The notes beneath the pieces were generated by a model. That model ran no database searches. It was given only the letters and a program-made list of their open reading frames with translations, and was not told where the DNA came from. From positions 1 to 27,804 of the forward strand of contig JAEENZ010000167.1 in NCBI GenBank assembly GCA_016283985.1: a stretch of 27,804 bases of DNA, written 5' to 3'. Origin of the DNA: Bacteroidales bacterium (GTDB taxonomy: Bacteria > Bacteroidota > Bacteroidia > Bacteroidales > UBA932). The translations under genes and the position numbers were made by a program. The number at the start of each line of letters is the position of its first letter. The stretch's first letter is position 1. This document shows positions 743 through 20,585 of this stretch, one piece after another.

Positions 743-753
743 TGTATGTCTGT

Positions 754-1827: not shown

Positions 1828-1833
1828 ATTCGC

Positions 1834-2871: not shown

Positions 2872-2875
2872 AGTA

Positions 2876-4294: not shown

Positions 4295-4299
4295 ATTAT

Positions 4300-5157
4300 T
4301 CAGAAAGATGACGCCAGCTCGAACCACTGGTTGAATCCTATGATTTCCCCTTTGCTCCAGCATGAGCCGAACCAATACTCGAGGGGCTCTCCGGATGCGA
4401 CCTTCTTCAGACAGACTCCGTGCCTGTCGCCGTCCACGATGGTGACGGAATCGGCCCCCGGCATGATGACGGCGACGCCTATCATGCCATCTTCGGGCTC
4501 GACGCTCTGGTCGGAGGCCTGCTCCCAGACAGCATAGTAATCCTCGCCGAAGGCTTCAGCTTCGATGGTATTCTGCTCGGGATGACGGAAGATGCCGGCG
4601 GCGATGGTTAGGGAATCTTTGTCAAAGCAATAGACATCCTCGACCTTGCAGAAATAACTGTCTGCATAAACGGTGACGGTCTTGTAGAGACTGACCTTGG
4701 TTTCGCCTGCCTGCCACTCTGGATAGTGCAGCACGAATGAGATTTCGGCTGGAGATTCGTGCAGGATCTCGCTGGTGCGCCAGTTTGTGGCCGGATAGCA
4801 TAGTTTCCCGTCGACGAAAGGCACGGAGCCACCTCCGCCGAGGCTGACTGCCACTTTATAACAGTCCTTGCCGCCATGGTCCTGGTGATAGTAGTTTCCG
4901 TTGCCGGGCTTGGTTGCCTCGGCGTACCAGTCGTTGGCGACCAGAGCCCCGGGCAGTTTAACCCAGATGTCGATTCCGGGAGATGTGGGATTGCCTTCCA
5001 GGGCCTTGCCGTAGAAGCGGCCGGCGATAAGGTTGTTCTCGAAAACGAAATCATCCGCGCGTTCGGGCACGGAACGCGCCATCACTTTCTGCTCCTGCGG
5101 TTTCGGGGCGCAGGCGGCCAGCATAAGCACGCTTGCTATCAGGATTAATTTCTTCAT
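4300..5157 (-). CDS. DUF4861-family lipoprotein
   Basis: A 285-residue protein starting at the ATG at 5157, with a lipoprotein signal peptide (MKKLILIASVLMLAAC, lipidated Cys16). It is therefore predicted to sit in the periplasm or outer membrane. The body (VFENNLIAGRFYGKALEG near the start, SPGIDIWVKLPG, KTVTVYADSYF, YWFGSCWSKG near the end) resembles the DUF4861 family, which has no settled function but often occurs in Bacteroidetes uronate or pectin loci. The beta-rich, Trp/Tyr-rich sequence suggests a carbohydrate-acting or carbohydrate-binding fold. It lies between kduI (1-base gap) and uxaC (5-base gap), so it is in the operon. A longer frame upstream overlaps kduI and is rejected in favour of the signal-peptide start. 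Function unknown; the family assignment is moderately sure. Confidence 0.75.
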   Translation of the reverse strand: MKKLILIASVLMLAACAPKPQEQKVMARSVPERADDFVFENNLIAGRFYGKALEGNPTSPGIDIWVKLPGALVANDWYAEATKPGNGNYYHQDHGGKDCYKVAVSLGGGGSVPFVDGKLCYPATNWRTSEILHESPAEISFVLHYPEWQAGETKVSLYKTVTVYADSYFCKVEDVYCFDKDSLTIAAGIFRHPEQNTIEAEAFGEDYYAVWEQASDQSVEPEDGMIGVAVIMPGADSVTIVDGDRHGVCLKKVASGEPLEYWFGSCWSKGEIIGFNQWFELASSF

Positions 5158-5158
5158 C

Positions 5159-6001
5159 TTATTTGAGATCTTCGGTCTTGCACCAGTCCATGTCGTTGTA
5201 ATCGTCATTTTCGCCGCACATCCCCCAGATGAATGTGTAGTTGCGGGTGGCGCAGGCGGAATGTATGCTCCACTGGGGCGAAATCACCGCCTCTTCATTG
5301 TGCATCCAGATGTGGCGAGTCTCCTGAGGCTCGCCCATGAAGTGGCACACCGCGGCGCCGTCCGGCACCTCGAAGTAGAAGTAAACCTCCATGCGGCGGT
5401 CATGGGTATGGGCAGGCATGGTGTTCCAGGTGCTGCCCGGAGCAAGTTCGGTCATTCCCATCTGCAGTTGGCAGCAAGGCACCACTTCCTTGACCAGCAG
5501 GCGGTTGATGGTGCGCTCGTTGCTCTCCTCGAGGCTCCCCAAATGCATTACCACCGCATCCTTCTTGCTCACCTTCTTCACGCCTGTCTCGCGGTGTGCG
5601 GTGGCGGAGCAGAAGTAGAAGTGCGCGGGCTTGTCGGCGCTGTCGCTCTTGAAGGTGACGTGGCGATCGCCGCGGCCGACATAGATGGCTTCCTTGTACT
5701 CCAGATGGTATTCATCTTCCCCCACCTGCACGGTGCCTGGGCCGCCCACGTTGATGATGCCGAGCTCGCGGCGCTGGGTGAAGAAATCGGCGCGGAGGAT
5801 GTCCGGAGCGCTCAGCAGGAGGTCCTCCTTCACGGGAACGGCTCCTCCGGCGATGATGCGGTCGAACATGGAGTAGACCATATTGATTTCATCCGCCACC
5901 ATCAGGTTCTGCACCAGGTACTCCTTCCTGATGCGTTCGGTGTCGTAGTGCTTGGCATCCACGTTGCTCGATGCCTGGCGTACTGTGCAATTAAGTTTCA
6001 T
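5159..6001 (-). CDS. kduI: 5-dehydro-4-deoxy-D-glucuronate isomerase (5-keto-4-deoxyuronate isomerase)
   Basis: Cupin-fold zinc isomerase that converts 5-keto-4-deoxyuronate, the spontaneous ring-opened form of the unsaturated uronic acid, to 2,5-diketo-3-deoxygluconate. The ATG at 6001 gives 280 residues, the usual length. The metal site is visible: HTHDRRMEVYFYF with His198, His200 and Glu205, and WSIH with His247. It starts 1 base after the kduD stop, a tight KduD-KduI pair. Its presence places lyase products on the pectin/GAG-type route rather than the DEH-reductase route used for alginate. Confidence 0.95.
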   Translation of the reverse strand: MKLNCTVRQASSNVDAKHYDTERIRKEYLVQNLMVADEINMVYSMFDRIIAGGAVPVKEDLLLSAPDILRADFFTQRRELGIINVGGPGTVQVGEDEYHLEYKEAIYVGRGDRHVTFKSDSADKPAHFYFCSATAHRETGVKKVSKKDAVVMHLGSLEESNERTINRLLVKEVVPCCQLQMGMTELAPGSTWNTMPAHTHDRRMEVYFYFEVPDGAAVCHFMGEPQETRHIWMHNEEAVISPQWSIHSACATRNYTFIWGMCGENDDYNDMDWCKTEDLK

Positions 6002-6002
6002 G

Positions 6003-6806
6003 CTATTTGGGTTGTTTTCCGATATAAGCGAGGATGCCGCCATCTACATATAGTATATGTCCGTTCACCGCGTCGGACGCGTGCGAGGCGAGGAAGACCG
6101 CCGGGCCTCCAAGTTCATCAGGTTCGAGCCAGCGGCCTGCCGGGGTCTTGGCGCAGATGAAAGAGTCGAAAGGATGGCGGCTGCCGTCGGGCTGGCGTTC
6201 GCGCAGGGGTGCTGTCTGGGGCGTTGCGATGTAGCCGGGGCCGATGCCGTTGCACTGGATGTTGTATTCTCCGTATTCCGAGCAGATGTTGCGTGTGAGC
6301 ATCTTCAGGCCTCCCTTAGCCGCCGCATATGCGGATACTGTCTCGCGTCCGAGTTCGCTCATCATCGAGCAGATGTTGATGATCTTCCCCTCGCGGCGCT
6401 CCATCATCTCCGGAAGGACGGCGCTGGAAACGATGTAGGGAGCCACCAGATCTACATCGATAACCTGTTGGAACTCAGCGCGTTTCATCTCGTGCATAGG
6501 GATGCGCTTGATGATGCCGGCGTTGTTTACCAGGATGTCGATCTGACCGACTTCCCTGTGGATGGTTTCAACGAGTGCCTTGACATCGTCTTCCTTGGTG
6601 ACATCGCAGACATAACCGTGCACGTTGTCGATGCCCGCCTCCTTGTAATTGTCCAGGGCCTTCTCCATGGACGCTTGATTGGAAGTGTTGAAGATTATGT
6701 TCTTCACGCCGGCTTCCACAAATGCTTTGGCAATGGCGAACCCTATGCCGTATGCAGCGCCGGTAACCCAGGCATTCTTGCCTTCGAGGGAAAAGATATT
6801 GGCCAT
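6003..6806 (-). CDS. kduD: 2-dehydro-3-deoxy-D-gluconate 5-dehydrogenase (KduD), SDR family
   Basis: Short-chain dehydrogenase/reductase of 267 residues that would reduce 2,5-diketo-3-deoxygluconate to KDG with NAD(P)H. The cofactor motif is TGAAYGIG (15-22), followed by the NNAG motif at 94-97. The catalytic set is Ser147, Tyr160 and Lys164 (SAYAAAK). The C-terminal block ILYVDGGILAYIG is typical of KduD. The ATG at 6806 is preceded by an AT-rich leader with a -7 box (6837-6844), so this may be the first gene of a separately controllable catabolic unit as well as part of the longer operon. Confidence 0.93.
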   Translation of the reverse strand: MANIFSLEGKNAWVTGAAYGIGFAIAKAFVEAGVKNIIFNTSNQASMEKALDNYKEAGIDNVHGYVCDVTKEDDVKALVETIHREVGQIDILVNNAGIIKRIPMHEMKRAEFQQVIDVDLVAPYIVSSAVLPEMMERREGKIINICSMMSELGRETVSAYAAAKGGLKMLTRNICSEYGEYNIQCNGIGPGYIATPQTAPLRERQPDGSRHPFDSFICAKTPAGRWLEPDELGGPAVFLASHASDAVNGHILYVDGGILAYIGKQPK

Positions 6807-6856: not shown

Positions 6857-7642
6857 CTACTTTAAATTATAAACAACAAAATTCTCATATCTGGAATTCC
6901 TCGTATACATTTGTCTTAACCCAATGCGTCCATAATCTACTTCAGGAAAACCAGAAGCATCAAAATAGAACAACTCATCCCTTCCATCACCTTCAACATT
7001 CATATAAAGGTCAGTCCCATATTTAATAATACGAATATGGTATTTTATTCCCACCTCGAATAAACCGACATTGATATACTCTTCCTTCATTTCGGTCCCC
7101 TTTAGTCCATTCTTTAAATCCGGCATATACCTTCTGGCTCTGATATAATCAAATTTACCCTCAGAAGGAACAGGTGTTACCGCATAACTCAAATGATAAA
7201 GATTCATATTATCAAAATATGTGCTCATTTTAGGCTTCTTCCTCAAACAATTCCATTTAATAATATCTCTGGCATAGCGCCCGGCGCCACTTCCTGTCGC
7301 TTGTATATAAATGATATTGACAAAATGATATTTAGAACTGTCCAATCTCACAAAGTCATATTCTATCATAAGATTTCCACCAAACTCTTTTTTTGTCCAT
7401 AAAACAGCGTGATCCTCATCATTATATGCTTCGGTACCTGCATACATCTCCAAGCCACCGTTTTTTAGTACCACTTTTGCCCTTTTACCATCTAAATGCC
7501 ACTTATCTTGCCAGTCAGAATTAAAATCATCATAGAAAGCAACTCCAATGATACGATTTGCCAACGACCTAAACTCCATCCTTTTAGATGTATTTCCCAA
7601 AAAAACAAATAAAGGGAGCAACAATACCACAATCAATTTCAT
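6857..7642 (-). CDS. DUF1961-family protein (YesU-like, concanavalin-type fold), AT-rich
   Basis: A 261-residue protein with a hydrophobic N-terminus (MKLIVVLLLPLFVFLG), probably a signal peptide for export; there is no lipobox Cys. The body, with YDDFNSDWQDKWHLDGKRAKV, KNGGLEMYAG, DEDHAVLWTKKEF, HFVNIIYIQATGSG and YGRIGLRQMYTRNSRYENF, resembles DUF1961, the family of Bacillus YesU from a rhamnogalacturonan locus. A jelly-roll, galectin-like glycan-binding or -cleaving role is plausible but unproven. Base composition stands out: only 17 of the 60 bases at 7201-7260 are G or C, against 35 of 60 at 5641-5700 in kduI. That suggests recent transfer. It follows the esterase gene by 39 bases, a gap holding one copy of a 19-base repeat. 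Confidence 0.7.
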   Translation of the reverse strand: MKLIVVLLLPLFVFLGNTSKRMEFRSLANRIIGVAFYDDFNSDWQDKWHLDGKRAKVVLKNGGLEMYAGTEAYNDEDHAVLWTKKEFGGNLMIEYDFVRLDSSKYHFVNIIYIQATGSGAGRYARDIIKWNCLRKKPKMSTYFDNMNLYHLSYAVTPVPSEGKFDYIRARRYMPDLKNGLKGTEMKEEYINVGLFEVGIKYHIRIIKYGTDLYMNVEGDGRDELFYFDASGFPEVDYGRIGLRQMYTRNSRYENFVVYNLK

Positions 7643-7681: not shown

Positions 7682-9034
7682 TTACAGGCATCCCTCAATA
7701 ACATCTGCCCTGAATGGCCCCACGGGAATACCCCATGCACTTATCAGATTAACCCTGCCGGGAACATTGCGAAATGCATAGCATATAGCCTTTGGAGATT
7801 TGACTTCAGATGGGATATCTACATCCACGCTCTTACGGTCAGAGGCCACTTTTGCGGCAGCCGGATAAAAAACCATGTCCTCGCCGGCAACTTCAAAACC
7901 TGTGATATCATGACCGAGCGGAGCCATTCCATGGCCATAATCCGTGAATTGTACATTTATAACACCTTCTCCAACGCTCATCGACTTGTAGCGGGGAGCA
8001 TCGGCCACGAAACCTTTGAGGCCGTAATCATGGCATAACGCAAGCGCTGCAAGTCTCTGTCCCACTTCCTTTTTCCTGGCAGGATGGATGCAATCCCGAT
8101 CGCCTATATCCACAGTTACCGCCATTCCGCTGTGAGGGATAAGGTCAAGCGCCTTTTCCTGAGCTTCCTGTATCATGCACGCAGACGTTCCGTTTTCCCC
8201 CTCATAAATGTACGGGGCGATTTGCGCATAGTAGAACGGCATATCCGGCGCAGTCCAGCGCTCCCGCATCATGCGGGCATAGCTTTCCATTAGAGAAGCG
8301 TAATGGTCGGCATTGTCCCGGTTCGACTCCCCCTGATACCATATCCAGCCTTTGATGGTATAAGGGATAAGCGGGGCGACCATGGCATTGAACAGTTCTC
8401 CACCCTGCATCCAGCTCTCAATACGGGTACCGCCCCATTTAGAGACGATAATGCCGACCGGCACTCCCAATGTTTCATATAGCTGTTTCGCAAAAAAATA
8501 CGCGGTTGCACTTGTAGCCGACACAACCTCGGGACGATTTTCCAGCCATCTGCAGGCACAATCCTCCTCTTCTTTATCGGATTTGGCTTTGGATACCGTA
8601 CACACTCGTATAGGAGTTCGGGGATTTGCGCCAAGGATAATGTCCATGCTTCCTTCGACCGGCTGTGAACTGTATCCTCTCATGGGCATCTCCATATTCG
8701 ACTGCCCGGAGCAGAACCATACTTCCCCTATCATGATATTGCTCAATTTCAGCTTCTCTCCGTCGCTCAGAACAATTTCATACGGGCCGCCGGCGCCGGG
8801 CGTCTGAATGCGTGTTTCCCACTTCCCGTCAGCGTCGGCAGTAACAACGGTCCGGGTCCTGGCCCACGATGGGGATATGGATACCCTTGCGCCCTCCCTG
8901 GCAGTCCCCCAGAGGGCGACGGAACTGTTCTGCTGAAGAACCATATTGTCTGAGAAGACATGGGGAAGCTTCACTTCTGCGTATGCTGCAGCATACAAAA
9001 GCAATAACAATCCTGCAGTAAACACTTTTTTCAT
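7682..9034 (-). CDS. Sialate O-acetylesterase-like SGNH carbohydrate esterase
   Basis: A 450-residue exported serine esterase, probably removing acetyl groups from sugar residues of the target glycan in the periplasm or at the surface. From the ATG at 9034 there is a clear signal peptide (MKKVFTAGLLLLLYAAAYA). The N-terminal beta domain starts LPHVFSDNMVLQ, as in sialate O-acetylesterases. The SGNH nucleophile block is FCSGQSNMEMPM with Ser112. GWIWYQGESN follows, and DRDCIHPARK supplies the acidic/His pair. In-frame ATGs also exist at 9043, 9055 and 9067; I chose 9034 because it gives the standard signal peptide. The family name reflects homology only: similar enzymes act on acetylated plant and algal polysaccharides, and nothing here implies sialic acid. 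Flanked by 19-base direct repeats. Confidence 0.85.
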   Translation of the reverse strand: MKKVFTAGLLLLLYAAAYAEVKLPHVFSDNMVLQQNSSVALWGTAREGARVSISPSWARTRTVVTADADGKWETRIQTPGAGGPYEIVLSDGEKLKLSNIMIGEVWFCSGQSNMEMPMRGYSSQPVEGSMDIILGANPRTPIRVCTVSKAKSDKEEEDCACRWLENRPEVVSATSATAYFFAKQLYETLGVPVGIIVSKWGGTRIESWMQGGELFNAMVAPLIPYTIKGWIWYQGESNRDNADHYASLMESYARMMRERWTAPDMPFYYAQIAPYIYEGENGTSACMIQEAQEKALDLIPHSGMAVTVDIGDRDCIHPARKKEVGQRLAALALCHDYGLKGFVADAPRYKSMSVGEGVINVQFTDYGHGMAPLGHDITGFEVAGEDMVFYPAAAKVASDRKSVDVDIPSEVKSPKAICYAFRNVPGRVNLISAWGIPVGPFRADVIEGCL

Positions 9035-9061
9035 ATAGTTCATTGTTAAAGACATTTTTTG

Positions 9062-9080
9062 TTTCAATAACCGGGAATCT
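9062..9080. repeat. 19-base direct repeat, copy 2 (upstream of the esterase)
   Basis: Identical to 7662-7680. This copy overlaps one arm of a strong hairpin (9071-9100) in the gap between the mutarotase and esterase genes. On the minus strand the repeat can be read as I-P-G-Y-stop, the kind of tail seen on many SusD proteins, but I do not consider that proof of a SusD remnant. Confidence 0.85.
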
Positions 9081-9456: not shown

Positions 9457-11532
9457 TTAATTCGTAATATCCACATCAACACTTAAGTAGCGGGTATAGC
9501 CCAATTGCTGATGCATCTGCATTACCTGTGCATTGTTCGGATATGCAATGCTGCTTGCCTTGGTATTACTCGCCCTGTTGGGAATAGCGGAAATCACACT
9601 CCGGATCGCGGTATTGGAAGGATACTCGTTGTAACCAAGTTCGAAGAGTCCGTGAAGGTCACCTGCCAAACCGATCCTTTCACTCTCACCGGTATAATAC
9701 CCACCCTGCAGGCTGGCATCCGGAGGAGTTGAAGCATAGAATGGAGCATAGAAGTTGAATGCCAGTTCCAGGTTTTCCCCGGTAGGGCAAGTATAATTAA
9801 AGAGATTGATGCTCCCCCCCGTCTCATTTTTCAATGAACGTGCGATGGTGGAAAGGATCTGCAGAGAAAGCATGGAATACTGCAAGCCCTTGTTGGTGGC
9901 TGTGTAATGACGGTATCTGTCAATCATTTCGCCTGTCTGAGGAGCGACCCCGTTGAGGTCCCTTGCGCAGGGGCTGTCACCAGCCATCAGGATGCAACCC
10001 TGCAGGCAGTCATAAATATCGCGGGGATTGTCGATGCTGTCGAGCGCGTATTCGACAAGTGACATGTCCTTAATGGCATAACCGATAGAAAGCAATCCCC
10101 AGTCACAGGCCAGGGCATGATTCTGGAAGTACTGCTGATCGAGATAATCGTTACTCTGCCAATAAGCCTGGGATTCCTTAATCACATCAGCGATATGCCG
10201 GAGCCATGTATCTATCACGGCATCCTGCGCAGAAGTAGAAAATGCTGTTCCACGGACAAACTCATAATACACAAAGAAGGGGAAGCACGCCCTTGCGAGC
10301 AAAGGACCGGCAGTTTCCTTAGTTGTATATTCGACACTTTTACATGCGTCCGCCCAGTCGTAAAGCAGAGGCGTGGCATAAGTGCCATACGTCGTGGTTC
10401 TCAAAGAACCATTCCCCATCATGGCATACATGAATGCATTCAAAGTCATCAGAGCCACATTTGCACAATTGTCATAGAATTCGCTTGGATCTGTAGTCGC
10501 TTTGTTTACATCTGTTACGGCTTCTATATCATAAGAATTGATTCCCTTGCCACGGGCGTTGGTAAGGTCGCGTGCGGTAATGAGGCTCGATGTTCCGGTA
10601 GCGCCTTTGATAAGGTTTTTCTGAGCTGCCGTATATAACAAGGCCATGTTTCCCGCAGCGCTGGGAGTCAATGACAATTTGTCGCGGTCGAAAGACAGGC
10701 CGCTGTCCAAGACACCAAGCTCAAAAACGCGACCTGCGGAACCCGTTGCCGCTGTCTTCTTGGCCTTGCTGTAAATTTTATTGTCCGTTTTGGTGACATT
10801 CACAGTCAAACCGTCGGTAAGACCGAAGGGAAGCACCACGATGTTGTAAGTGCCAGGGGCAAAAGAACCGCCGCCTTCAGGAACAAGCTGGACCTTACTC
10901 CAGGCAACACCAAGGGCATCCGTATCGATGGAAGGATTACCGCTGCCGTCGAACACGATGGACACGTCTCCGGCAAGTTTCTCCGAGTTGTTCGCCTTGA
11001 TGACAATCTCCGTTATATCAGAAGCTGTTATTGTGAATCTAAGCAGGGTCCCGAGATTGACAAACGTCAAAGAGCTGCCGCTTGCCTTGGCAACCGCTAG
11101 ATTCGTCCCGTCCGCAAATCCGGAAAGGGCTCCTGTCTGCTTGTGGGAGAGATATGTTTTGATAGTCTTGGTAGAATAATTCCACGTAGCTTCATCGTTA
11201 TAGGGATACAATGCATAGAACTCGCTCGCATTTACATCGGCATATCCGGAAAAGGTCGTAGAACTTCCGGCTGCGTTTGCATCGAAAGATGCGTAACTGG
11301 AACAGGTAGCTGTTTCATCGAAGATATTGATTTTGTCCGTGGAAGACCAGACCAAAGATAGGCCGTCTCCAGCCAGATTAGTCTTCGTGGCTGGCACCTT
11401 GAACGTTTTCTTTACGAGTCCAAACTCATTTACTTTTTCTTCAATAGTGAAATCCTGGGATTCCTTCTGGGAACAAGATACCAATCCCGATACCAGAACG
11501 GCAATTGTGGCTATGTATAATAACTTTTTCAT
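9457..11532 (-). CDS. Surface lipoprotein: fimbrillin-like domain fused to an alginate-lyase-type (alpha/alpha toroid) domain
   Basis: A 691-residue predicted lipoprotein (MKKLLYIATIAVLVSGLVSC, Cys20). Residues about 25-275 look like a Mfa/fimbrillin-type beta domain: LVWSSTDKINIFDE, a TTFSGYAD segment, FYALYPYN and FAPGTYNIVVLPFG. Residues about 290-691 are an alginate-lyase-like helical domain paralogous to the proteins at 11690-13237 and 19202-20443. Within it, QQYFQNHALACDWGLLSIG holds His472 in the position of the PL5-type catalytic His. DRYRHYTATNKGLQY holds the presumed catalytic Tyr. It would cut a uronic-acid polymer by beta-elimination at the cell surface. Fusion of a fimbrillin-like module to a lyase is uncommon. 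The family (PL5/PL38-like) and substrate are inferred from fold motifs only. Confidence 0.7.
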   Translation of the reverse strand: MKKLLYIATIAVLVSGLVSCSQKESQDFTIEEKVNEFGLVKKTFKVPATKTNLAGDGLSLVWSSTDKINIFDETATCSSYASFDANAAGSSTTFSGYADVNASEFYALYPYNDEATWNYSTKTIKTYLSHKQTGALSGFADGTNLAVAKASGSSLTFVNLGTLLRFTITASDITEIVIKANNSEKLAGDVSIVFDGSGNPSIDTDALGVAWSKVQLVPEGGGSFAPGTYNIVVLPFGLTDGLTVNVTKTDNKIYSKAKKTAATGSAGRVFELGVLDSGLSFDRDKLSLTPSAAGNMALLYTAAQKNLIKGATGTSSLITARDLTNARGKGINSYDIEAVTDVNKATTDPSEFYDNCANVALMTLNAFMYAMMGNGSLRTTTYGTYATPLLYDWADACKSVEYTTKETAGPLLARACFPFFVYYEFVRGTAFSTSAQDAVIDTWLRHIADVIKESQAYWQSNDYLDQQYFQNHALACDWGLLSIGYAIKDMSLVEYALDSIDNPRDIYDCLQGCILMAGDSPCARDLNGVAPQTGEMIDRYRHYTATNKGLQYSMLSLQILSTIARSLKNETGGSINLFNYTCPTGENLELAFNFYAPFYASTPPDASLQGGYYTGESERIGLAGDLHGLFELGYNEYPSNTAIRSVISAIPNRASNTKASSIAYPNNAQVMQMHQQLGYTRYLSVDVDITN

Positions 11533-11689: not shown

Positions 11690-13237
11690 TCAATTTATTG
11701 AATCTGCATCAATGCTGTACAGACGGGTATATCCAAGCTGATCGTGCATTTGGACTTTGTTCTGATACCTGTTGGGAATTGCGTTTATGACCTTCTTTAT
11801 AGGTTCGCTGTCCGGATATGCATTCAGACCGAGTTCGAACAGCCCCTGCATATCGCCCGCCTTGCTAAGGCGGTCTGTCTCGCCGGTGTAGTAGCCACCC
11901 TGGAGGTCCGCATCAAGCTTCTCATAGAAAGGAGCATAGAACTCATAGCAAAGGCGAAGGTTCTCTCCGCCAGGAGCAGTGTATGCATACATGTCGATAC
12001 CGTTGTTGTAGCAGGTACGGGCAGCGCAGGAAAGAATCTGCAACGTAAGGCTGGTGTACTGCAAGCCCTTCAGCGGAGCGGTTTCATGACGGTAGCGGTC
12101 ATAGATTTCACCAGTCTGAACGGCTGCGCCGGAACTCTCCCTGGAACATGGAGTATCCCCTTCCATGAAGATGCAGTTCTGTATCAGTTCATAAAAATCC
12201 CGGGGGTTTTCATCAGAATCTATCGCATACTGCACAAGGGACGCATCCTCAAGCACATACCCGATGCTTAGAAGGCCCCACATATGGGCGGCCAGCTGGT
12301 TGTTCCAATACTGCTTGCCAAAGTAATCGTTATTGTCCCAGCTGTTGATGCTTGCCTTAGCAGCCTTTTCAATATTGCGGAACCAGGCAACGATAACGGC
12401 ATCCTTCTCGGAAGGAATATACACAGACCCCCCGAGGCAGTCATATACCACAAAGAAGGGCCACGCCACCCGCGACAGATACATGCCCGCGCCAACTGTA
12501 GGCTCATCAGAGTCCGTGGCGTTAATGGGATAATCCACATCCTTGCAGGCATTTGCCCAACTGTAAAGGATATCCACCGCCCCTGCGGCATATGTGGCTT
12601 TTTTATCGGCATCGTCTGTCAGATAGTATGCCACGGCTCGGTGAAGGGCAAGTGCAGAGGGTCCCTTCATATACTTGTAGAGCGTTCCCATATCCGTATT
12701 CTCCTGCTTCTGTGCAACGGTTACGGTTTCGGGATCATAAGCGCCTCCTGCGCGGGCAAAGATCAGGTCCACCGCCCCCTTCACCGTGGGAGCGCCGGCA
12801 GCATAAGCAGCCTTGATCTTGGCAAACTGTTCATCAGTGAAGGCGATGGAAGGATGTTTGAAGGTAATCTCCAACTTTTTCCCATCCTGCTTGATTTGCA
12901 CGGATGCCTTCAATTCTCCGGCAGTAATATCCACCGTCGCGGTTCTCTCCGTCTTTTCGCCGTTAGCCTGGACATCGAGCGTAACCTTTCCATTACCCTC
13001 GCCTGTATTTGCCCCTGAGAAATCAATCCATCCCTGCTCGGAGGTAGTAATCTTTGCTTCCCATTCGCCATCGCAGATGAATTCCACGACAATACCGGTC
13101 TGGCCGGCATACGGCACGGTTACAAGGTCGTCAGTAACTACTGAAAGTTTAGTAGGGCCTGTTTCCACAGGGTCCTTTTTACAGGAAACGCTTGCAATGG
13201 CAAGTGTCGCCATCAAAAGAATAAGAATTTTTTTCAT
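11690..13237 (-). CDS. Lipoprotein: BACON-like domain plus alginate-lyase-type domain with His-to-Gln change
   Basis: A 515-residue predicted lipoprotein (MKKILILLMATLAIASVSC, Cys19). Residues about 30-118 form a BACON/Ig-like module (CDGEWEAKITTSEQGWIDF, then ERTATVDITAG and VQIKQDG), usually mucin- or glycan-binding or a spacer. Residues about 125-515 are paralogous to the helical lyase domain of the neighbouring gene, with near-identical blocks such as GGYYTGE, GLFELG, AIPNR and QLGYTR. The catalytic block reads QYWNNQLAAHMWGLLSIG: Gln314 (codon at 12296-12298) replaces the His found in both paralogues. DRYRHETAPLKGLQY keeps the presumed catalytic Tyr. It may be a glycan-binding pseudoenzyme or use another base. 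Its ATG overlaps the GH105 stop by 4 bases (ATGA). Confidence 0.72.
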   Translation of the reverse strand: MKKILILLMATLAIASVSCKKDPVETGPTKLSVVTDDLVTVPYAGQTGIVVEFICDGEWEAKITTSEQGWIDFSGANTGEGNGKVTLDVQANGEKTERTATVDITAGELKASVQIKQDGKKLEITFKHPSIAFTDEQFAKIKAAYAAGAPTVKGAVDLIFARAGGAYDPETVTVAQKQENTDMGTLYKYMKGPSALALHRAVAYYLTDDADKKATYAAGAVDILYSWANACKDVDYPINATDSDEPTVGAGMYLSRVAWPFFVVYDCLGGSVYIPSEKDAVIVAWFRNIEKAAKASINSWDNNDYFGKQYWNNQLAAHMWGLLSIGYVLEDASLVQYAIDSDENPRDFYELIQNCIFMEGDTPCSRESSGAAVQTGEIYDRYRHETAPLKGLQYTSLTLQILSCAARTCYNNGIDMYAYTAPGGENLRLCYEFYAPFYEKLDADLQGGYYTGETDRLSKAGDMQGLFELGLNAYPDSEPIKKVINAIPNRYQNKVQMHDQLGYTRLYSIDADSIN

Positions 13238-14442
13238 AGAGATGAATTATTAGTGTTTGTGTTAATGTATTTTAATATCTCCCCGCCGACAAGTACCAAC
13301 GAGGCTGTTCCGTAAACTTCATTCTTTTCGGCAGACAAGTGTTCCGGCGTATCGCCTATGGGCTGCACCCAACCCAACTTGCCGCATGGCTGAACCGCTG
13401 AAACCAACGCTTCCCATCCGGCTTGTGCGACGGGTAGGAAAATCGTTTCATCCAGCAGGCCGCTGTTAATCCCCCACCAGAGTCCATAGGAAATAAGCCC
13501 CGTGGAACTGCTCTCCGGGCTGGGATAATCTTCAGGATCCAGCAGACTGGCTCTCCAGAAACCATCTTTTCCCTGGAGCCTGATCAGTTTTGCCGCCATT
13601 TCTTTGAACATGGTTTCGTACCGTCCCATATCAGGATAATCCTGAGGCAGCAAGTCGATCACCCTTGCAAGAGCCGCCAGCACCCAACCATTTCCACGCC
13701 CCCAGAAGACTTTTTCCCCGTTAGGTTCCTTTTTGGAAAAGAAACGGCTGTCGCGGAATATAAGGCTGTCTGATGGGGAGTACAGATACTCTGTCGTGCG
13801 CCAGAACTCCCTGTTCATGAACTCGCGGTACTCATCGCAGCCTGTGATGTTTGCAATGATGGCAAATGTGGGGGCTGCCACGTAAAGCGCATCGCACCAA
13901 CTCCATTTCTCGTGATTGGCAACGGTCATAAAATCAAGATCGTCAGTCTCTGGCCAATGCTTCATCAGATAGTCCATCCTCTCGATCGTGGGAGAAAGTT
14001 TCTGCCAACCTCCTGCCAACACATCAAGTTCTTCCTGAAAATCGGCGATGCGGTCTTTTAAAAAACGAGGCTTTGGATCATCGAGATAAAGACTCACATA
14101 CAACATGCTGACTGCCAACCCATTGGCAGGGTTGAAACATTTCGGGGCCGGCTCATAGCGATTCTGTTTGGCTATGGCCTGGAGTTGTTCACGAAGGCCG
14201 GGCATATTGGGCCAGGTTGCAGCAGCGCCAAGAAGCACACCATCCGCCCAACCTGTGTATGGAGGGTTATACCACGCGCGGCCATCTTCCGGCATGTGTT
14301 TCAGCTGCCAGTCGAGTGAGGCATTCACGACTTCGGTTACAGCTCCCACCTCCAGTGCTCCGGAGTATTTACCGCATCCTGTTTTCTGGACACAAGAAAG
14401 CAGCAGAGCTGCCAAAGACAACATACAAAGTATTCTCTTCAT
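13234..14442 (-). CDS. GH105-type unsaturated uronyl/rhamnogalacturonyl hydrolase, lipoprotein
   Basis: A 402-residue (alpha/alpha)6-barrel glycoside hydrolase, like YteR/GH88-105. It would remove 4,5-unsaturated uronic acid from the non-reducing end of lyase products, which then open spontaneously to the KduI substrate. The N-terminus MKRILCMLSLAALLLSC is a lipoprotein signal with Cys17. GWADGVLLGAA carries Asp67, and WSWCDALYVAAP carries Asp184, the position of the YteR catalytic Asp. FWGRGNGWV is a strong GH105 signature. The ATG at 14442 overlaps the susD stop by one base (TGATG); an upstream ATG at 14448 is also possible. It ends in an ATGA overlap with the next lyase gene, so translation is probably coupled. 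Confidence 0.88.
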   Translation of the reverse strand: MKRILCMLSLAALLLSCVQKTGCGKYSGALEVGAVTEVVNASLDWQLKHMPEDGRAWYNPPYTGWADGVLLGAAATWPNMPGLREQLQAIAKQNRYEPAPKCFNPANGLAVSMLYVSLYLDDPKPRFLKDRIADFQEELDVLAGGWQKLSPTIERMDYLMKHWPETDDLDFMTVANHEKWSWCDALYVAAPTFAIIANITGCDEYREFMNREFWRTTEYLYSPSDSLIFRDSRFFSKKEPNGEKVFWGRGNGWVLAALARVIDLLPQDYPDMGRYETMFKEMAAKLIRLQGKDGFWRASLLDPEDYPSPESSSTGLISYGLWWGINSGLLDETIFLPVAQAGWEALVSAVQPCGKLGWVQPIGDTPEHLSAEKNEVYGTASLVLVGGEILKYINTNTNNSSL

Positions 14443-16136
14443 CACCATCCTGGATTATTAGGTAAAAGTTTAGGATTGTTCGTAACTTCTTCAGAAGGAA
14501 TGGGCCAGAGATTATTTCTGGAATCGAAAGACCTGGTGAACAATGTCAAACCCGTAATCTCATGCTCTTTGCGGCCATTCAACAGTGCTTCAGCAATTCC
14601 CCATCTTCTGATATCCGAAAAACGGTGACCCTCCCCGGCAAGTTCGTAAGCGCGCTCATTGCGGATACGTTCACGCATACCTGCCTGCCCTCCTGCAGCA
14701 AGCCATGAGGGGCCACTGTCAATACCAGGCATTCCAACGCGCGCGCGGACTTTATTGACCTCGATAACTGCTTTGGCAGTTTCATTGTTCTCGTTGTAAG
14801 CTTCTGCCAACATAAGCAGAACATCGGCAAAACGTATGATGGAGAAATTTACCGGGCTGTGCCTGCGGTTGGTAAGGGTTCCGCCTATATCTCCGCACGG
14901 TACGAATTTTCGGTAGAGATAGACTCTCCAACCACGGTCAAACTGGATGAAACCATTTGCAGCGGTGCATCCGGAAGCGATGGCATACTGCTGCCATTTC
15001 GAAGCGTCGGTGACCCATCCTTCATACCATGAGTAGGGAACTATCAAGGTCCAATTCAGGCGCGGATCCCTGCCCCTGTAGATACTGCCGAGCAGGGCCG
15101 TATCGGGAACTGCATCATAACCGTCCAGCTGATTGTTCAGTTTGGCCTCGAAAGCCGTGCGCTTGACCGCATCGTTCGTGGTGAAGCCCGGGATGAAATT
15201 ATCCCAGTTGAAAGCTTTGCCGTCCTTCATCTCATACATATCAGCCAACTTGATACTCGGCATGCAGGTGGCACGTCCGGAACCATATGTTCCGCGGGTC
15301 CCATAAATCATGGGAAATTCCATCCCCAAGACCGGACCCATATTCTGGACGGTAAAAACCTCCTCATGATTTCCGGGAATGACTCCGGCAGTCTGGAAAA
15401 GTGCGTAGAAATCCGGGTAAAGGGAATATTCGTACGAGGCATTCTTGTCATAGACTATCTCTTCGAAGTCCTCTATCGCACCGCTCCATCTCTTCTGATA
15501 CAGTCGAGCTTTTCCCCTCAAGGCATAGGCGGCGCCTTTCGTCGCCCTACCATGGTCACTGTCTGCCCATTTTACAGGCAATAGGGCTATTGCCTCGGTA
15601 AGGTCATCCTCGATGAATTTCCAGCATTCTTCCTGGGAAGAGCGGGGCAGGAGCATTTTCATGAACTTTTTGGTTATATCCCAGCTCTCATCATAGATGG
15701 GAACGGAACCGAACAGATCGACAAGGTGGAAATAATAGAGGGCACGCATAAAGTGGGCTTCTCCCAAAACGGGGCCCTTCACATCGTCTCCGATGGACAT
15801 TTCAGCCACATTTTTCAGCACGGTATTGGCCCTGTGGACCCCGGTCCATGTATCTTTCCAGTTTGCAACAAGGAAGTCTTCCTTTGCAGTGTAAGTACCT
15901 ACTTCCAAAGGGCTCCCGGGGCCATGTGCAATGTCGGAATAAGTGTCCAGCAAAGGCATATATCCAAATGCCCCCTGGTGCTTCATCTGAGCATATACCC
16001 CCATAATAGCCTGTTTTGCATCCGTCTCCGTTTTCCAGAAATTACCCTGCGCAACAGAATCATAAGGAGCCTTGTCCAGGGACATGCACCCGGGCAGAAG
16101 CATAATGATCAACGGGATTATTATAGTCTTTTTCAT
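14442..16136 (-). CDS. SusD/RagB-family surface glycan-binding lipoprotein
   Basis: A 564-residue lipoprotein that caps the SusC channel and captures oligosaccharides. The start at 16136 gives MKKTIIIPLIIMLLPGC with Cys17; a longer frame upstream overlaps susC. The N-terminal FWKTETDAKQAIMGVYAQM block, HFMRALYYFHLVDLFGSVP, GAAYALRGKARLY, FADVLLMLAEAYNE and the end (WPIPSEEVTNNPKLLPNNPGW) are classical SusD features. It starts 1 base after the susC stop and is followed directly by GH105. The ligand cannot be read from sequence. Confidence 0.95.
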   Translation of the reverse strand: MKKTIIIPLIIMLLPGCMSLDKAPYDSVAQGNFWKTETDAKQAIMGVYAQMKHQGAFGYMPLLDTYSDIAHGPGSPLEVGTYTAKEDFLVANWKDTWTGVHRANTVLKNVAEMSIGDDVKGPVLGEAHFMRALYYFHLVDLFGSVPIYDESWDITKKFMKMLLPRSSQEECWKFIEDDLTEAIALLPVKWADSDHGRATKGAAYALRGKARLYQKRWSGAIEDFEEIVYDKNASYEYSLYPDFYALFQTAGVIPGNHEEVFTVQNMGPVLGMEFPMIYGTRGTYGSGRATCMPSIKLADMYEMKDGKAFNWDNFIPGFTTNDAVKRTAFEAKLNNQLDGYDAVPDTALLGSIYRGRDPRLNWTLIVPYSWYEGWVTDASKWQQYAIASGCTAANGFIQFDRGWRVYLYRKFVPCGDIGGTLTNRRHSPVNFSIIRFADVLLMLAEAYNENNETAKAVIEVNKVRARVGMPGIDSGPSWLAAGGQAGMRERIRNERAYELAGEGHRFSDIRRWGIAEALLNGRKEHEITGLTLFTRSFDSRNNLWPIPSEEVTNNPKLLPNNPGW

Positions 16137-16137
16137 A

Positions 16138-19100
16138 TCAGAACGTAAGGTTAATACCTGTGACAAACTGTTTCAGTGTAGGGTATGTGGTGCCGCCGAC
16201 TTCCGGGTCTATACCATGATATCCGGTAAATGTGAGGAGGTTCTCGGCAGACACGTAGAAACGAACTTTACTCACGCCCAAAGCGGCTGTCAAAGATTCT
16301 GGAAGGGAGTATCCTATCTGGATATTTTTCAGACGGACGTAAGATTTGTTTTCGACCCAGTAATCACTCGGCTGGTTATTGATTGCATTCGTTCGGGTGA
16401 GAAGGCGCGGAGCAGTTGCATCGGTGACGCCGGGACGCCATGCATTTTCTGCAAGCCTGGTATTTATCGGGCCGCCATAATTAAGGTATCCCATATTGAA
16501 ATCATCCATCCAGAGTACTTTGTAACCGGCATTACCCTGAATCATCAAAGAGAAATCAATCCGCTTCCAGTCGAATCCCGCCTGGATACCGAAAATCCAG
16601 GGAGCAATGTTGCCGTTTCCTACTGCATAGCGGTCTTTCTCGTCGATAATGCCGTCTTCGTTGAGATCCTTATACAGGAAATCTCCAAGCGCCGGCGTGC
16701 CATAAGCAGAGAACGGATTCTTTTTGGTACCGCTCACCGGATCGACTGGGGCATTCTTCTGCATCTGCTTGACCAGCAGCATGTCCTCGTCCGTCTGAAG
16801 GATGCGGTCAACCGCCAGAACATACTGGACATTGATGGGGTAACCTTCCTTTATCATATTGGATCCGCTGATCGTCGCTTCGTCACCCTTATATGTCTCC
16901 ACTTTGTTCTTTACATATGCAAGATTGCCACCGAAATACCAGTTGAAGGATCCAATCCGGTCACGCCAGCGGATATCCAGATCAAAACCCCTGTTGCTTA
17001 CACGTGCGGCATTTTGAGTGGGAATTGATGCGTTGCCTACAAGGAGCGGAGCGGGAAGGTCCACAAGGATATTGCGCGTATCTTTCAGATACCAGTCGAA
17101 GGATCCGGAAAGACGGGACTTCAGGAAGGCGAAATCCAGGCCGATATCAGTCACGTAAGTGGTCTCCCAGGTAATGTCCGCGTTGCTGATGGAAAGGATC
17201 GCAACTCCCTGGGCGATGCCGCTGTTCAGCACATAGTTGTCTTTGTTGAATACTGACTGATATTCGTAGTTCCCGACTGCGTTGTTACCGAGAGATCCCC
17301 ACGAACCGCGCAATTTGAGTTGCGAAACCCATTTGGCTCCGGCAAGGAACGACTCCTTATCCATACGCCAACCAAGCGAGAAAGAGGGGAAAATGCCCCA
17401 TCGCTTTCCGATGCGGAAACGTGAAGAACCGTCAGCGCGGACATTAGCCTCGAACAGGTATTTATCTTCCCACGCCAGGTTCAATCTGCCGAAGAAAGAA
17501 CGCATCGCCCAATCGGACTTGTTTCCATTGGTTTCCATTACTCCGGTAGCAGCATTCAGCACGGATACGGAACTCGCAATAAGGGAATAGCGCTTTGCGT
17601 TGAAAGACTCGGTCACCGCTTTTTCCTGGCTCGCACCCAGGATGCCTCCTACCGAGAGTTTATCCGCAAAATCATGGTTATATCGCAGAATTACATCCGT
17701 AAGCACCCTGGTGGATGTCGTGTTACTGTTGTATGCATAATCATTTCCGTTTTTTGCATACACTATGGTATTCATCCTGAAGCTCCAGAGATCTTCAAAC
17801 TCAGGGTGCGAGTTCTGCCTGCTGACGCTTTGGGTATAATTGACAGAGCCATCCAGCGTAAGGCCTTCCAGGAGCTTTGCAGATGCGTAGAAACGGGCCA
17901 TTGTCGTATTGTCGTTTATGACTCCCTTCACCTGATTGAATAAGTACAGGGGGCTCTGGCACTGGGCATTCTCCTCAGGGTTCTCAATACCGCCGTAACG
18001 GCCGTCCTCATAACGGTATATAAGTCCGGGCATTCCGACAGCGCCGAAAAGGGACTTCATCTGGCTGGAACCTATATCAGCCTGTCCCACTTTGCCGCTT
18101 GCATTGATTCCGAGAGTCAGATATTTGTTCGCACGCACCTGCGCATTAATGCGAGCATTGTACCTTGTATATGCCGAATTCTCGACGATGCCCGGGTTAT
18201 GCAGGTAACCCAGGGATCCAAAGATGGACATGCGGTCGGTGCCGGCGGAGAAGGACAGGTCATGTCTGTCTGCAATTCCCATCTGGAAAACCTCTTTCGT
18301 CCAATCGGTATTGGGATAAAGAGGATTTCCCTCGTTGGCCCTCCACAGCTCTATGATATCGTCGGAATACTGCTGCTTTGCGCTGGGATCGGTGTTGTGG
18401 AGCGCCTCGTTGTAGTACCCCATATAGTCTGCATAGTTATGGATGGTCTCAAGCAGATGGCTGGGGGCTTCGACCGATGCATAGCCATGGTAGCTGACTG
18501 AAATCTTTCCAGCCTGTCCGGTCTTCGTAGTTATCAATATGACTCCTCCTGCTGCCCGTGAACCGTATATGGAAGAGGATGACGCATCCTTCAATACGGA
18601 GATCGACTGCACATCCTGAGGATTTACCGATGACATATCGCCTTCAATACCGTCAATGATGACAAGGGGTGCTGAATTATTCAGGGTACCACGCCCACGG
18701 ATCAGCAATGTGGCGCCGTCGGCATTGGGCCGGCCTGAATTCTGATTCACATACAGACCAGCGCTCAGGCCGGCCAGACCGGAGGAAAGGCTCGTCACCG
18801 GACGGCCGCCAAGCATTTCATCCATATTGACGGATGATACAGCCCCGGTAAGGTTGACTTTCTTCTGCACACCATACCCGACGACAACGGTTTCCTCAAG
18901 GAACTGTGACGACTCTGAGAGCACCACTGTCGCGTCATGAAGCTTTTCTTCAGGCATCTCCTGTTCTTCATAACCAAGGGCTGAAAAGACAATGACAGAG
19001 CCTTTTGTCACATTTAACGAGAACTCGCCATTCAATCCGGAACCGGTTCCCCGGTCGGTGCCTTTCTCAATCACACCGACACCGGGGATACGATTTCCAT

Positions 19101-19197
19101 CAGAGTCAACAACAACTCCGCTGACCCTTACCAGACTGCTCTGGGCGAAACCCGGCAACATTGCGCCGAGCATCAATAATATGATAAAACGTTTCAT
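16138..19197 (-). CDS. SusC/RagA-family TonB-dependent outer-membrane transporter
   Basis: A 1019-residue outer-membrane receptor importing oligosaccharides together with SusD. The start at 19197 gives a signal peptide (MKRFIILLMLGAMLPGFA). It is followed by a carboxypeptidase-regulatory-like domain (VSGVVVDSDGNRIPGVGV, then GEFSLNVTKG and a conserved GYEEQE turn). The plug domain begins at ETVVVGYGVQKKVNLTGAVS and includes LIRGRGTLNNSAPLVIIDG and VLKDASSSSIYGSRAAGGVI. The rest is a 22-stranded barrel ending in Phe (GINLTF), as expected for BamA recognition. It begins 4 bases after the stop of the preceding lyase gene. Having a lyase ahead of susC in the operon is less usual than susC first. 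Confidence 0.96.
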   Translation of the reverse strand: MKRFIILLMLGAMLPGFAQSSLVRVSGVVVDSDGNRIPGVGVIEKGTDRGTGSGLNGEFSLNVTKGSVIVFSALGYEEQEMPEEKLHDATVVLSESSQFLEETVVVGYGVQKKVNLTGAVSSVNMDEMLGGRPVTSLSSGLAGLSAGLYVNQNSGRPNADGATLLIRGRGTLNNSAPLVIIDGIEGDMSSVNPQDVQSISVLKDASSSSIYGSRAAGGVILITTKTGQAGKISVSYHGYASVEAPSHLLETIHNYADYMGYYNEALHNTDPSAKQQYSDDIIELWRANEGNPLYPNTDWTKEVFQMGIADRHDLSFSAGTDRMSIFGSLGYLHNPGIVENSAYTRYNARINAQVRANKYLTLGINASGKVGQADIGSSQMKSLFGAVGMPGLIYRYEDGRYGGIENPEENAQCQSPLYLFNQVKGVINDNTTMARFYASAKLLEGLTLDGSVNYTQSVSRQNSHPEFEDLWSFRMNTIVYAKNGNDYAYNSNTTSTRVLTDVILRYNHDFADKLSVGGILGASQEKAVTESFNAKRYSLIASSVSVLNAATGVMETNGNKSDWAMRSFFGRLNLAWEDKYLFEANVRADGSSRFRIGKRWGIFPSFSLGWRMDKESFLAGAKWVSQLKLRGSWGSLGNNAVGNYEYQSVFNKDNYVLNSGIAQGVAILSISNADITWETTYVTDIGLDFAFLKSRLSGSFDWYLKDTRNILVDLPAPLLVGNASIPTQNAARVSNRGFDLDIRWRDRIGSFNWYFGGNLAYVKNKVETYKGDEATISGSNMIKEGYPINVQYVLAVDRILQTDEDMLLVKQMQKNAPVDPVSGTKKNPFSAYGTPALGDFLYKDLNEDGIIDEKDRYAVGNGNIAPWIFGIQAGFDWKRIDFSLMIQGNAGYKVLWMDDFNMGYLNYGGPINTRLAENAWRPGVTDATAPRLLTRTNAINNQPSDYWVENKSYVRLKNIQIGYSLPESLTAALGVSKVRFYVSAENLLTFTGYHGIDPEVGGTTYPTLKQFVTGINLTF

Positions 19198-19201
19198 AAC
19201 A

Positions 19202-20443
19202 CTATATATCTCTTCCATGTGTTAAAACTACAGGTCCGAACAGATGCATCTCGCAACACTTGACCCGATCGTTGGCAGCCAGGACGCTTTCATAGTCGGG
19301 GTTTCCGGGGAAACGTGCATTGGCAACCTCCCAGAAAGCGGATGTTGCTTCATCGTTGATGTTGATGTACCACTCCTCCCCGGAATAAATACTGCCGGAG
19401 CAGTTGTGGGTTGCATAATAACGGGCATAGTGGCTCCAGATCAAAGGAATTCTTTCGCCATGTTCCCCTGTCCAGCCATATAGATCCAAACCGTTATTCC
19501 TGCATATTTCTGCAATAATCACCAGCAAGCTACCCGTGAGGTTGCAGTATTGCAGTCCCCTGTCCGGTTTTGTCACATAATCCTTGTAATGACCGCCCAA
19601 TTCAAAATGACGGTAACGGTCATACACTTCGCCATTACAAACCGGATGGTACTCCGGCTCGCGGTAGTAAGGGTCATCACCCTCCATCAGAATACTCCCT
19701 TGAATCAGATCCAGAACATCCCTTTCGTTGTCCCTGCAGTCAAATGAATACTTAAGTAGAGCCTCATCGCGAAGGATGACTGCGATAGAGAACAACCCCA
19801 TCGTTGCAGCTGCCAGATGGTTCTGGAAATACTGCCTGTCGTAGTAATTGTTGAATTTCCAGCGGTGCTCCCCCTCTTTGATTACCGGGACCAGCGCACG
19901 TATCCACTCATAAAAACGGTCACATGTCTGTTGCGGCACCAGATTGTCGGCCATCAGCAGGTCGAATGCATAGAGAAAGGGGAAGATACTGCGCGACGCG
20001 AGCATGCCGCCGTTGCCGCCATCGGTAGAGTCATTAATCCTGATTCCCGGCCACTCTTCGGTTTCTGTCCAGGTCTGAAGAATCTTTACAGCAGCTTCTG
20101 CATAGGAAGGTTTATTTGTTATCTGCCAAAGGATTGCAAGGTCCCTTGCCATACCGCCGTCGCGTTGGGAATGTTTGAAGAGGGCATATCCATCATCTCC
20201 GATATATGCGGACGGGGTCCATTTCCCCTCAACGGCCTTGGCGCCTTTCTTGGCCAGAAGCTCATAGCACGACTTGTACGGCTCCTTTCCTGAAAGGGCA
20301 TTTTGACGCATCGTTTTAATGTCCGACCTGCTGAGAATCAGCCTGGGATATGTATCTTTTATGACGGGCGACACCTTTGAGCCATGGATACAAGACAGCA
20401 TCAACGGCGACAACAACAGTGCGATCAGAGGCAAGTATTTCAT
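19202..20443 (-). CDS. Alginate-lyase-type (PL5/PL38-like) lipoprotein, first gene of the operon
   Basis: A 413-residue lipoprotein (MKYLPLIALLLSPLMLSC, Cys18) with no extra N-terminal module. The start at 20443 is favoured over 20464 because it gives the signal peptide. YPRLILSRSDIKTMR opens the mature domain as in many lyase/heparinase-like toroids. RQYFQNHLAAATMGLFSIA supplies His209 in the PL5-type catalytic position. YDRYRHFELGG and KPDRGLQY supply the conserved Arg/Tyr region shared with the proteins at 9457 and 11690. It is shorter and more divergent than those two. A beta-elimination lyase for a glucuronan- or mannuronan-like polymer is likely; substrate uncertain. It is transcribed from the region shared with the divergent HTCS gene. 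Confidence 0.75.
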   Translation of the reverse strand: MKYLPLIALLLSPLMLSCIHGSKVSPVIKDTYPRLILSRSDIKTMRQNALSGKEPYKSCYELLAKKGAKAVEGKWTPSAYIGDDGYALFKHSQRDGGMARDLAILWQITNKPSYAEAAVKILQTWTETEEWPGIRINDSTDGGNGGMLASRSIFPFLYAFDLLMADNLVPQQTCDRFYEWIRALVPVIKEGEHRWKFNNYYDRQYFQNHLAAATMGLFSIAVILRDEALLKYSFDCRDNERDVLDLIQGSILMEGDDPYYREPEYHPVCNGEVYDRYRHFELGGHYKDYVTKPDRGLQYCNLTGSLLVIIAEICRNNGLDLYGWTGEHGERIPLIWSHYARYYATHNCSGSIYSGEEWYININDEATSAFWEVANARFPGNPDYESVLAANDRVKCCEMHLFGPVVLTHGRDI

Positions 20444-20461: not shown

Positions 20462-20469
20462 CAAATTTA
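20462..20469 (-). promoter_or_regulatory. Candidate -7 box of the lyase-susCD operon
   Basis: The minus strand reads TAAATTTG, a perfect TAnnTTTG match, 18 bases upstream of the operon's first ATG at 20443. No good -33 element is visible at 19-21 bases upstream, which fits a promoter dependent on an activator such as the divergent HTCS. Confidence 0.55.
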
Positions 20470-20495: not shown

Positions 20496-20535
20496 AATAA
20501 TTGTCTTTAAATACAACAATAATTGCCCTTATTTA
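20496..20535. promoter_or_regulatory. Candidate HTCS operator: two 18-base direct repeats with 22-base period
   Basis: Copies at 20496-20513 and 20518-20535 share AATAATTG followed by a pyrimidine stretch and TTA, matching at 14 of 18 positions. Their starts are 22 bases apart, about two helical turns. They lie 26 bases beyond the -7 box of the susCD operon, where an AraC-type activator would bind. The region is AT-rich, so some similarity could be chance. Confidence 0.4.
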
Positions 20536-20567
20536 GTTTAAGTTTTACTTTTTTTATATTATTATGC

Positions 20568-20575
20568 TATCTTCG
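20568..20575 (+). promoter_or_regulatory. Weak candidate -7 box of the HTCS gene
   Basis: TATCTTCG differs from TAnnTTTG at one position and lies 10 bases before the chosen ATG. It would give a very short leader. No convincing -33 element is seen. Confidence 0.25.
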
Positions 20576-20585
20576 TGGTTATTAT

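Follow-up and report, generated by a model that had tools for sequence, protein, structure and literature searches.

An active-site substitution sets the lyase P0002 apart from its two paralogues in the same locus. P0002 is encoded on the minus strand at 11690..13237 of a 27,804-nucleotide contig from a Bacteroidales bacterium (UBA932; assembly GCA_016283985.1, contig JAEENZ010000167.1), which was analyzed over its full length and is called the window here. This 515-residue protein, with a BACON domain and an (alpha/alpha)-toroid lyase domain (Pfam PF13004 and PF05426), has a glutamine, Gln314, where related polysaccharide lyases have their active-site His. Its sequence is best explained if P0002 is a surface-type toroid lyase that works or did so until recently, with Gln in place of the imidazole beside the neutralizer Asn. 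The sequence-only reading had framed Gln314 as peculiar to one protein; instead, it is one of about 8 losses of the His in the clade of these paralogues. The fold, the family, and the surrounding polysaccharide utilization locus are ordinary. Neither a His-to-Gln variant nor the recurrent, clade-restricted loss of the His with most of the site fixed was reported in the titles and abstracts surveyed, in a literature search that was not aimed squarely at them.

The other two lyases of the window, also on the minus strand, are P0001 (691 residues, 9457..11532), which has an extra N-terminal region of about 280 residues, and the toroid-only P0003 (19202..20464, or to 20443 without the TTG start). 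Translation of the minus strand confirmed Gln314 in P0002 (codon CAG, 12298-12296) versus His in both paralogues: His472 in P0001 (codon 10117-10119) and His209 in P0003, or His216 with the upstream TTG start at 20464 (codon 19817-19819). The motif, QYFQNH in P0001 and P0003 and QYWNNQ in P0002, was found once per protein. The toroid of P0002 is 47% identical to that of P0001 and 29% identical to that of P0003. Sequence and PDB-chain profile alignments paired Gln314 with the active-site His243 of BoPL38, Asn313 with its neutralizer Asn242, and Tyr394 with Tyr298. The earlier assumption that this is the position of an active-site His was thus borne out, by profile alignment to the His of PL38, PL17, and PL39 and, for PL5, by the fold and an aligned Tyr, since Tyr394 also matches the Tyr of SLHY in A1-III. 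As had been claimed, the rest of the fold and the GLQY Tyr are kept in P0002, and so is Asn313. GLQY (Gln393-Tyr394, 12056..12061 in P0002) is common to all three lyases, with Tyr552 in P0001 and Tyr306 in P0003 (counted from 20464). In the block E377..D380-R381-Y-R383-H384 (12086..12109), E377, D380, R381, and R383 were invariant and H384 was variable over 38 aligned rows. A second derived residue adjoins Gln314, so that the P0002 motif reads NNQ versus QNH: Asn312 (Asn312-Asn313, 12299..12304) replaces a Gln shared by all 17 His-bearing BACON-lyases in the comparison.

All three proteins matched PF05426 (Alginate_lyase) above its curated cutoff of 22.2 bits (P0001, 31.9; P0002, 40.7; P0003, 55.8), and the BACON domain of P0002 scored 29.7 bits against a cutoff of 25. 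The AlphaFold2 model of P0002 (mean predicted local distance difference test score, 90.7) has the (alpha/alpha)-toroid fold of the PL5 and PL38 families. P0002 also has their neutralizer Asn and catalytic Tyr (both aligned to BoPL38, and the Tyr to A1-III), and it lacks their His next to the Asn. A family profile matched PL17 (8bdd), 3nfv, PL39, and PL5 chains at E values between 8e-13 and 2e-8, none of them clearly the nearest family, while a single-sequence search of PDB chains with P0002 returned no lyase chain up to an E value of 10. The stronger scores for the BoPL38 alignment come from a profile built with two further PF05426 proteins. PL15 and PL33 were also listed in the fold comparison, at lower Z, a result that speaks against no other family. 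BoPL38 (PDB 8BDQ and the 9FH/9FI series), which is 14% identical to P0002, differs from it in having H243 and H297 where P0002 has Gln314 and Gln393 and in lacking its N-terminal BACON domain. The PL5 enzymes A1-III and Smlt1473 likewise have the active-site His where P0002 has Gln, at 14 to 16% identity to A1-III chains. In the PL17 and PL39 alginate lyases, an Asn-His motif aligns with N313-Q314; unlike P0002, these enzymes have two domains and additional catalytic residues beyond the toroid. The PL35 glycosaminoglycan (GAG) lyases, or GAGases, differ from P0002 in their C-terminal beta domain.

To place Gln314 in its family, we compared 131 rows, composed of 122 further proteins from three protein searches together with the lyases of five related loci (L001 to L005). 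Some of the locus rows duplicate protein rows. Six fragments shorter than 380 residues (P0071, P0074, P0075, P0078, P0079, and P0122) were dropped; L006 and L007, strong PF05426 proteins of another type, were kept out; and P0027, P0028, and P0030, each of which has two lyase domains with His in both of those aligned, were counted by one domain each. Residue 314 was His in 109 rows, Met in 12, Gln in 5, Trp in 2, and Ile, Ser, and Glu in 1 each. All 22 non-His rows fell within a single clade of 58 rows, made up of P0002-type and P0001-type proteins, in which 36 rows keep the His, while none of the 73 rows outside it lacked the residue. Within the clade, residue 314 required a minimum of 9 letter changes (7 if only His versus non-His is scored), and irreversible (Dollo) counting gave 8 losses of the His. 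Dollo classes replaced binary His/non-His parsimony, which had put His-less ancestors deep in the tree with reversals. The clade holds all changes at residue 314 on 9.2 of 40.5 branch-length units (P = 3e-5 at equal rates, for a clade delimited post hoc). Moreover, the 9 changes at this residue compare with 0 to 3 clade-internal changes at each of 15 other active-site positions counted. Over all 131 rows, position 393 changed eight times, position 384 six times, and positions 346 and 347 five times each, mostly outside the clade.

Gln314 recurs in P0004, P0006, and P0007, representatives of clusters of 9, 3, and 10 sequences (the representatives alone were inspected), and in the more distant P0061. 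A read error in P0002 is therefore unlikely. P0007 (Gln) and P0005 (His) are sisters with nearly equal branch lengths, 0.070 and 0.064. In the loci L001 to L005, residue 314 is His in all six P0002-type lyases. With the full-length alignment as query, a whole-genome search matched 263 of 299 genomes but was swamped by BACON-only matches; among the matches listed, only the six rows from genomes G001 and G003 extend past about residue 190. A toroid-only search matched 2 of 199 genomes at 1e-40. As separate observations, three His-less lyases, P0014 (Trp), P0025 (Trp), and P0061 (Gln), each have 25712 as their longest contig and so possibly belong to one locus in which every such lyase has lost the His. 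P0099, a His-bearing P0003-type relative, has Ser at the neutralizer Asn position (QSH). The protein at L006:47-1246 matches PF05426 strongly (222 bits as L011 match); its motif reads NSH versus NNH in its neighbor, so that here too the neutralizer Asn may be Ser.

The variety of residues at position 314 could mean that a shared D-configured substrate made the His dispensable and that the residue drifts with specificity unchanged. We consider such neutral relaxation improbable, although the many replacements (Q, W, M, I, S, and E) and the excess of changes over the rest of the active site are what it predicts. On the other hand, retention of the His in 36 of the 58 clade rows does not suit free drift, nor does the stability of Gln314 over P0002, P0004, and P0006 with the linked changes Q312N and G354N. 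The probabilities that we attach to the competing readings do not sum to one, because neutral relaxation overlaps with the syn-lyase reading set out below. The Gln lineage shows linked derived Gly307, Asn312, and Asn354 (12176-12319). Residue 354 is Gly in all 55 His-bearing rows of a 77-row tree, and Gly307 tracks loss of the His (16 of 22 His-less versus 3 of 55 His-bearing rows), a link that was not significant over independent pairs (median P = 0.125).

Work on characterized lyases bears on what loss of the His would mean. In BoPL38, H5 is reported to be abstracted by Y298 in syn and by H243 in anti elimination (PMC13169297). For the PL5 enzyme Smlt1473, Asn167 is reported to neutralize and Tyr222 to act as base and acid for mannuronate (ManA), while His168 can be the base for C5 epimers such as guluronate (GulA) or iduronate (IdoA) (PMC8511899). 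In the PL35 enzyme GAGase III, the H188A and H188N variants are reported to be without activity on alginate but to retain part of that on GAGs (PMC12088678); its His precedes the Asn, so the match to residue 314 is insecure. Residue roles in these families are also reported to shift according to whether the +1 sugar is D- or L-configured (PMC11848413). By analogy, the literature thus gives reason to expect a narrowed scope and inactivity alike.

Two possibilities had been proposed for P0002, a variant acting on a different uronate epimer and a glycan-binding pseudoenzyme. The former fits better, because the group that has lost only the His keeps its other conserved sites as constrained as His-bearing proteins do and because the PL38 His is reported to serve the anti and the Tyr the syn reaction. 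We see an even chance that P0002 is a Tyr-driven, syn-only lyase for D-glucuronate (GlcA)-type sugars, a predicted activity left after loss of the anti base. Tyr394 would serve as base and acid alike in a beta-elimination of syn geometry, as suits D-GlcA or D-ManA at subsite +1, and Asn313 together with an Arg close by would presumably neutralize the carboxylate. Without the His, P0002 would be incapable of anti-elimination of L-GulA, L-IdoA, or D-galacturonate, and the His-bearing P0001 and P0003 may cover the rest of the polymer. The unsaturated product would be processed by the GH88-type hydrolase, KduI, the KduD-like dehydrogenase, and the 2-keto-3-deoxygluconate (KDG)-kinase-like PfkB proteins of the locus. 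Loss of the His would then probably narrow the range of cleavable sugars rather than simply kill the enzyme. A surface location for P0002 is guessed from its BACON domain and a lipobox-like N terminus (SVSC, called by eye).

The pseudo-lyase alternative holds that Gln314 abolishes useful catalysis and that the BACON domain and toroid cleft present the polymer to SusC/SusD while P0001 and P0003 cut it; we regard it as a serious possibility that falls short of an even one. By the usual mark of a pseudoenzyme, loss of an essential catalytic residue, P0002 has lost the His and kept the Asn and Tyr. Indeed, 18 of the 22 His-less proteins, P0002 among them, keep both Asn313 and Tyr394. The remaining four, the P0001-type proteins P0054, P0065, P0066, and P0085, have lost Tyr394 as well as the His, two of them also Asn313, and are likely true pseudo-lyases, judging by these residues. 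We then counted changes at 26 positions that are at least 95% conserved in the 73 outgroup rows. Relative to the number expected from background, 31 changes versus 124 were observed in His-bearing lineages, 14 versus about 48 where only the His was lost, and 15 versus 18.7 in multi-loss lineages. Lineages that had lost only the His did not differ from His-bearing ones (Fisher P = 0.62) but differed from multi-loss ones (P = 0.011). An earlier version of this test (1 change versus 29 expected in the His-only-lost lineages) was discarded as circular, its sites having been picked partly from His-less sequences. P0002 itself showed a nonsynonymous divergence of 0.19 from its L001 orthologue, with synonymous divergence saturated, and no acceleration in four relative-rate comparisons (chi-square, 0.1 to 2.3). 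These values and the almost intact active site suggest that P0002 is under selection, which argues against plain decay.

Several results weigh against a syn-only lyase, some of them in favor of a pseudo-lyase. The Smlt1473 H168A mutant, described as inactive, was used with the GlcA (syn) substrate tetra-HA, and His168 is reported to hydrogen-bond the +1 sugar (PMC8511899). Structure titles record further His mutants, A1-III H192A, Alg17c H202L, PanPL H172A, and AlgL H202A. Trp, Met, and Ile at residue 314 fit a specific neutralizer swap poorly. Loss of Tyr394 occurred only in His-less proteins (4 of 22 versus 0 of 109), as if loss of the His opened the way to inactivation, and the conserved sites of these four relatives evolve nearer to background. 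With the two class-defining residues, 313 and 394, left out, the multi-loss class had 10 changes versus 17.2 expected and the contrast was lost (P = 0.17). The test therefore separates live from dead enzymes poorly, since multi-loss proteins also change less than background without these two residues. For the Gln lineages alone (P0002, P0004, P0006, and P0007), 2 changes versus 6.2 expected made a weak test (P = 0.05). A pseudo-lyase would also suit a locus whose two His-bearing paralogues could do the chemistry, as well as the possible wholly His-less locus of P0014, P0025, and P0061. Speaking against it are the retained Asn and Tyr of the 18 proteins and the conserved sites, which over six pooled losses evolve no faster than in His-bearing lineages; this evidence is indecisive, as much the same constraint would be expected of a protein that only binds.

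One helical turn past Gln314 lies His318 (12284..12286), a candidate substitute in the sequence. His318 is present in 20 of 22 His314-less versus 53 of 109 His314-bearing proteins, and 12 of 13 P0001-type rows with His314 have Cys there. However, these counts are phylogenetically confounded, and P0061 lacks both His residues yet has the Asn and Tyr. No compensatory reading is needed, since His318 is just as fixed among the BACON-lyases with His314 in place. We thus think it quite unlikely that His318 has taken over the lost role.

The gene for P0002 is a mosaic. At 118 sites that separate P0004 (Gln) from P0005 (His) and at which P0002 matches one of them, P0002 tracks P0005 as far as about residue 151 (one site excepted), switches to P0004 between residue 152 and about 422, and returns to P0005 for residues 423 to 515, forming 5 allele runs versus 56.7 expected (z = −10). 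The Gln core therefore sits in a frame that carries a His core in the nearest relative. Recombination between alleles would be the simple reading; a chimeric assembly is a possible alternative source. That Gln314 itself is a sequencing or assembly artifact, including a chimeric contig, seems very improbable to us: the mosaic matches two known alleles and the source is possibly metagenomic, but Gln314 recurs in P0004, P0006, and P0007, two breakpoints within one gene would be required, and the substitution pattern is typical of a normal coding gene. More speculatively, and with considerable doubt, the toroid-lyase clade may have repeatedly shed the anti base to give Tyr-only, syn-specific enzymes, with His and Gln cores as exchangeable cassettes in one gene frame and recombination tuning the epimer specificity of a gut polysaccharide locus.

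For toroid lyases, the case for which residue is the base for which uronate epimer still draws mainly on mutants made in one enzyme at a time. Several natural losses of the His beside close His-bearing relatives, such as the sisters P0005 and P0007, make the syn/anti division of labor directly testable, and the same losses bear on when a lyase becomes a pseudoenzyme. They also show that the annotation "alginate lyase family" conceals proteins with differing active sites.

The lyases lie in a polysaccharide utilization locus of the Bacteroidota kind, having a SusC/SusD pair, carbohydrate-active enzymes, and a hybrid two-component sensor/regulator (HTCS). The HTCS gene (20523..24512, plus strand) is divergent; the other genes, on the minus strand, follow in the order P0003, a SusC-like TonB-dependent transporter (16138..19218; TIGR04056, 883 bits), a SusD-like glycan-binding lipoprotein (14442..16166; PF07980, PF14322), a GH88/GH105-type Glyco_hydro_88 protein that is likely an unsaturated uronyl hydrolase (13234..14448; PF07470, 202 bits), P0002, P0001, a SASA-type carbohydrate acetylesterase (7682..9067; PF03629, 78.5 bits), a DUF1961 protein (6857..7642; PF09224, 44 bits), and a uronate catabolic block (2..6806). 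The block comprises a gluconate-5-dehydrogenase/KduD-like short-chain dehydrogenase, KduI, a DUF4861 protein, UxaC, two KDG-kinase-like PfkB proteins, and Gnd, which is cut by the window end. Judged by gene family, these catabolic genes would suit a lyase product with a 4,5-unsaturated uronate at its end. The 19 gene products scanned included no sulfatase; together with the GH88-type gene and the esterase, this leans toward an acetylated, unsulfated uronate heteropolymer as the putative substrate.

The order from HTCS to the SASA-type gene recurs in L001 and L002, from two uncultured Bacteroidales. DUF1961 and the catabolic genes were not seen beyond the SASA-type gene in the few kilobases covered there. 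L003 to L005 have other arrangements without P0001. In L005:2623-9930, from a metagenome-assembled genome, the genes for SusC, SusD, and the P0003-type lyase are each broken into two open reading frames, reflecting decay or assembly errors. The N-terminal region of P0001 (10693-11532) had no Pfam match up to an E value of 1 except a weak lipoprotein site. In L002:11654-13282, an extra 542-residue lipoprotein-like open reading frame lies between the BACON-lyase and P0001 orthologues. In the window, the DUF1961 (6857-7642) and DUF4861 (4300-5208) proteins sit beside the lyases.
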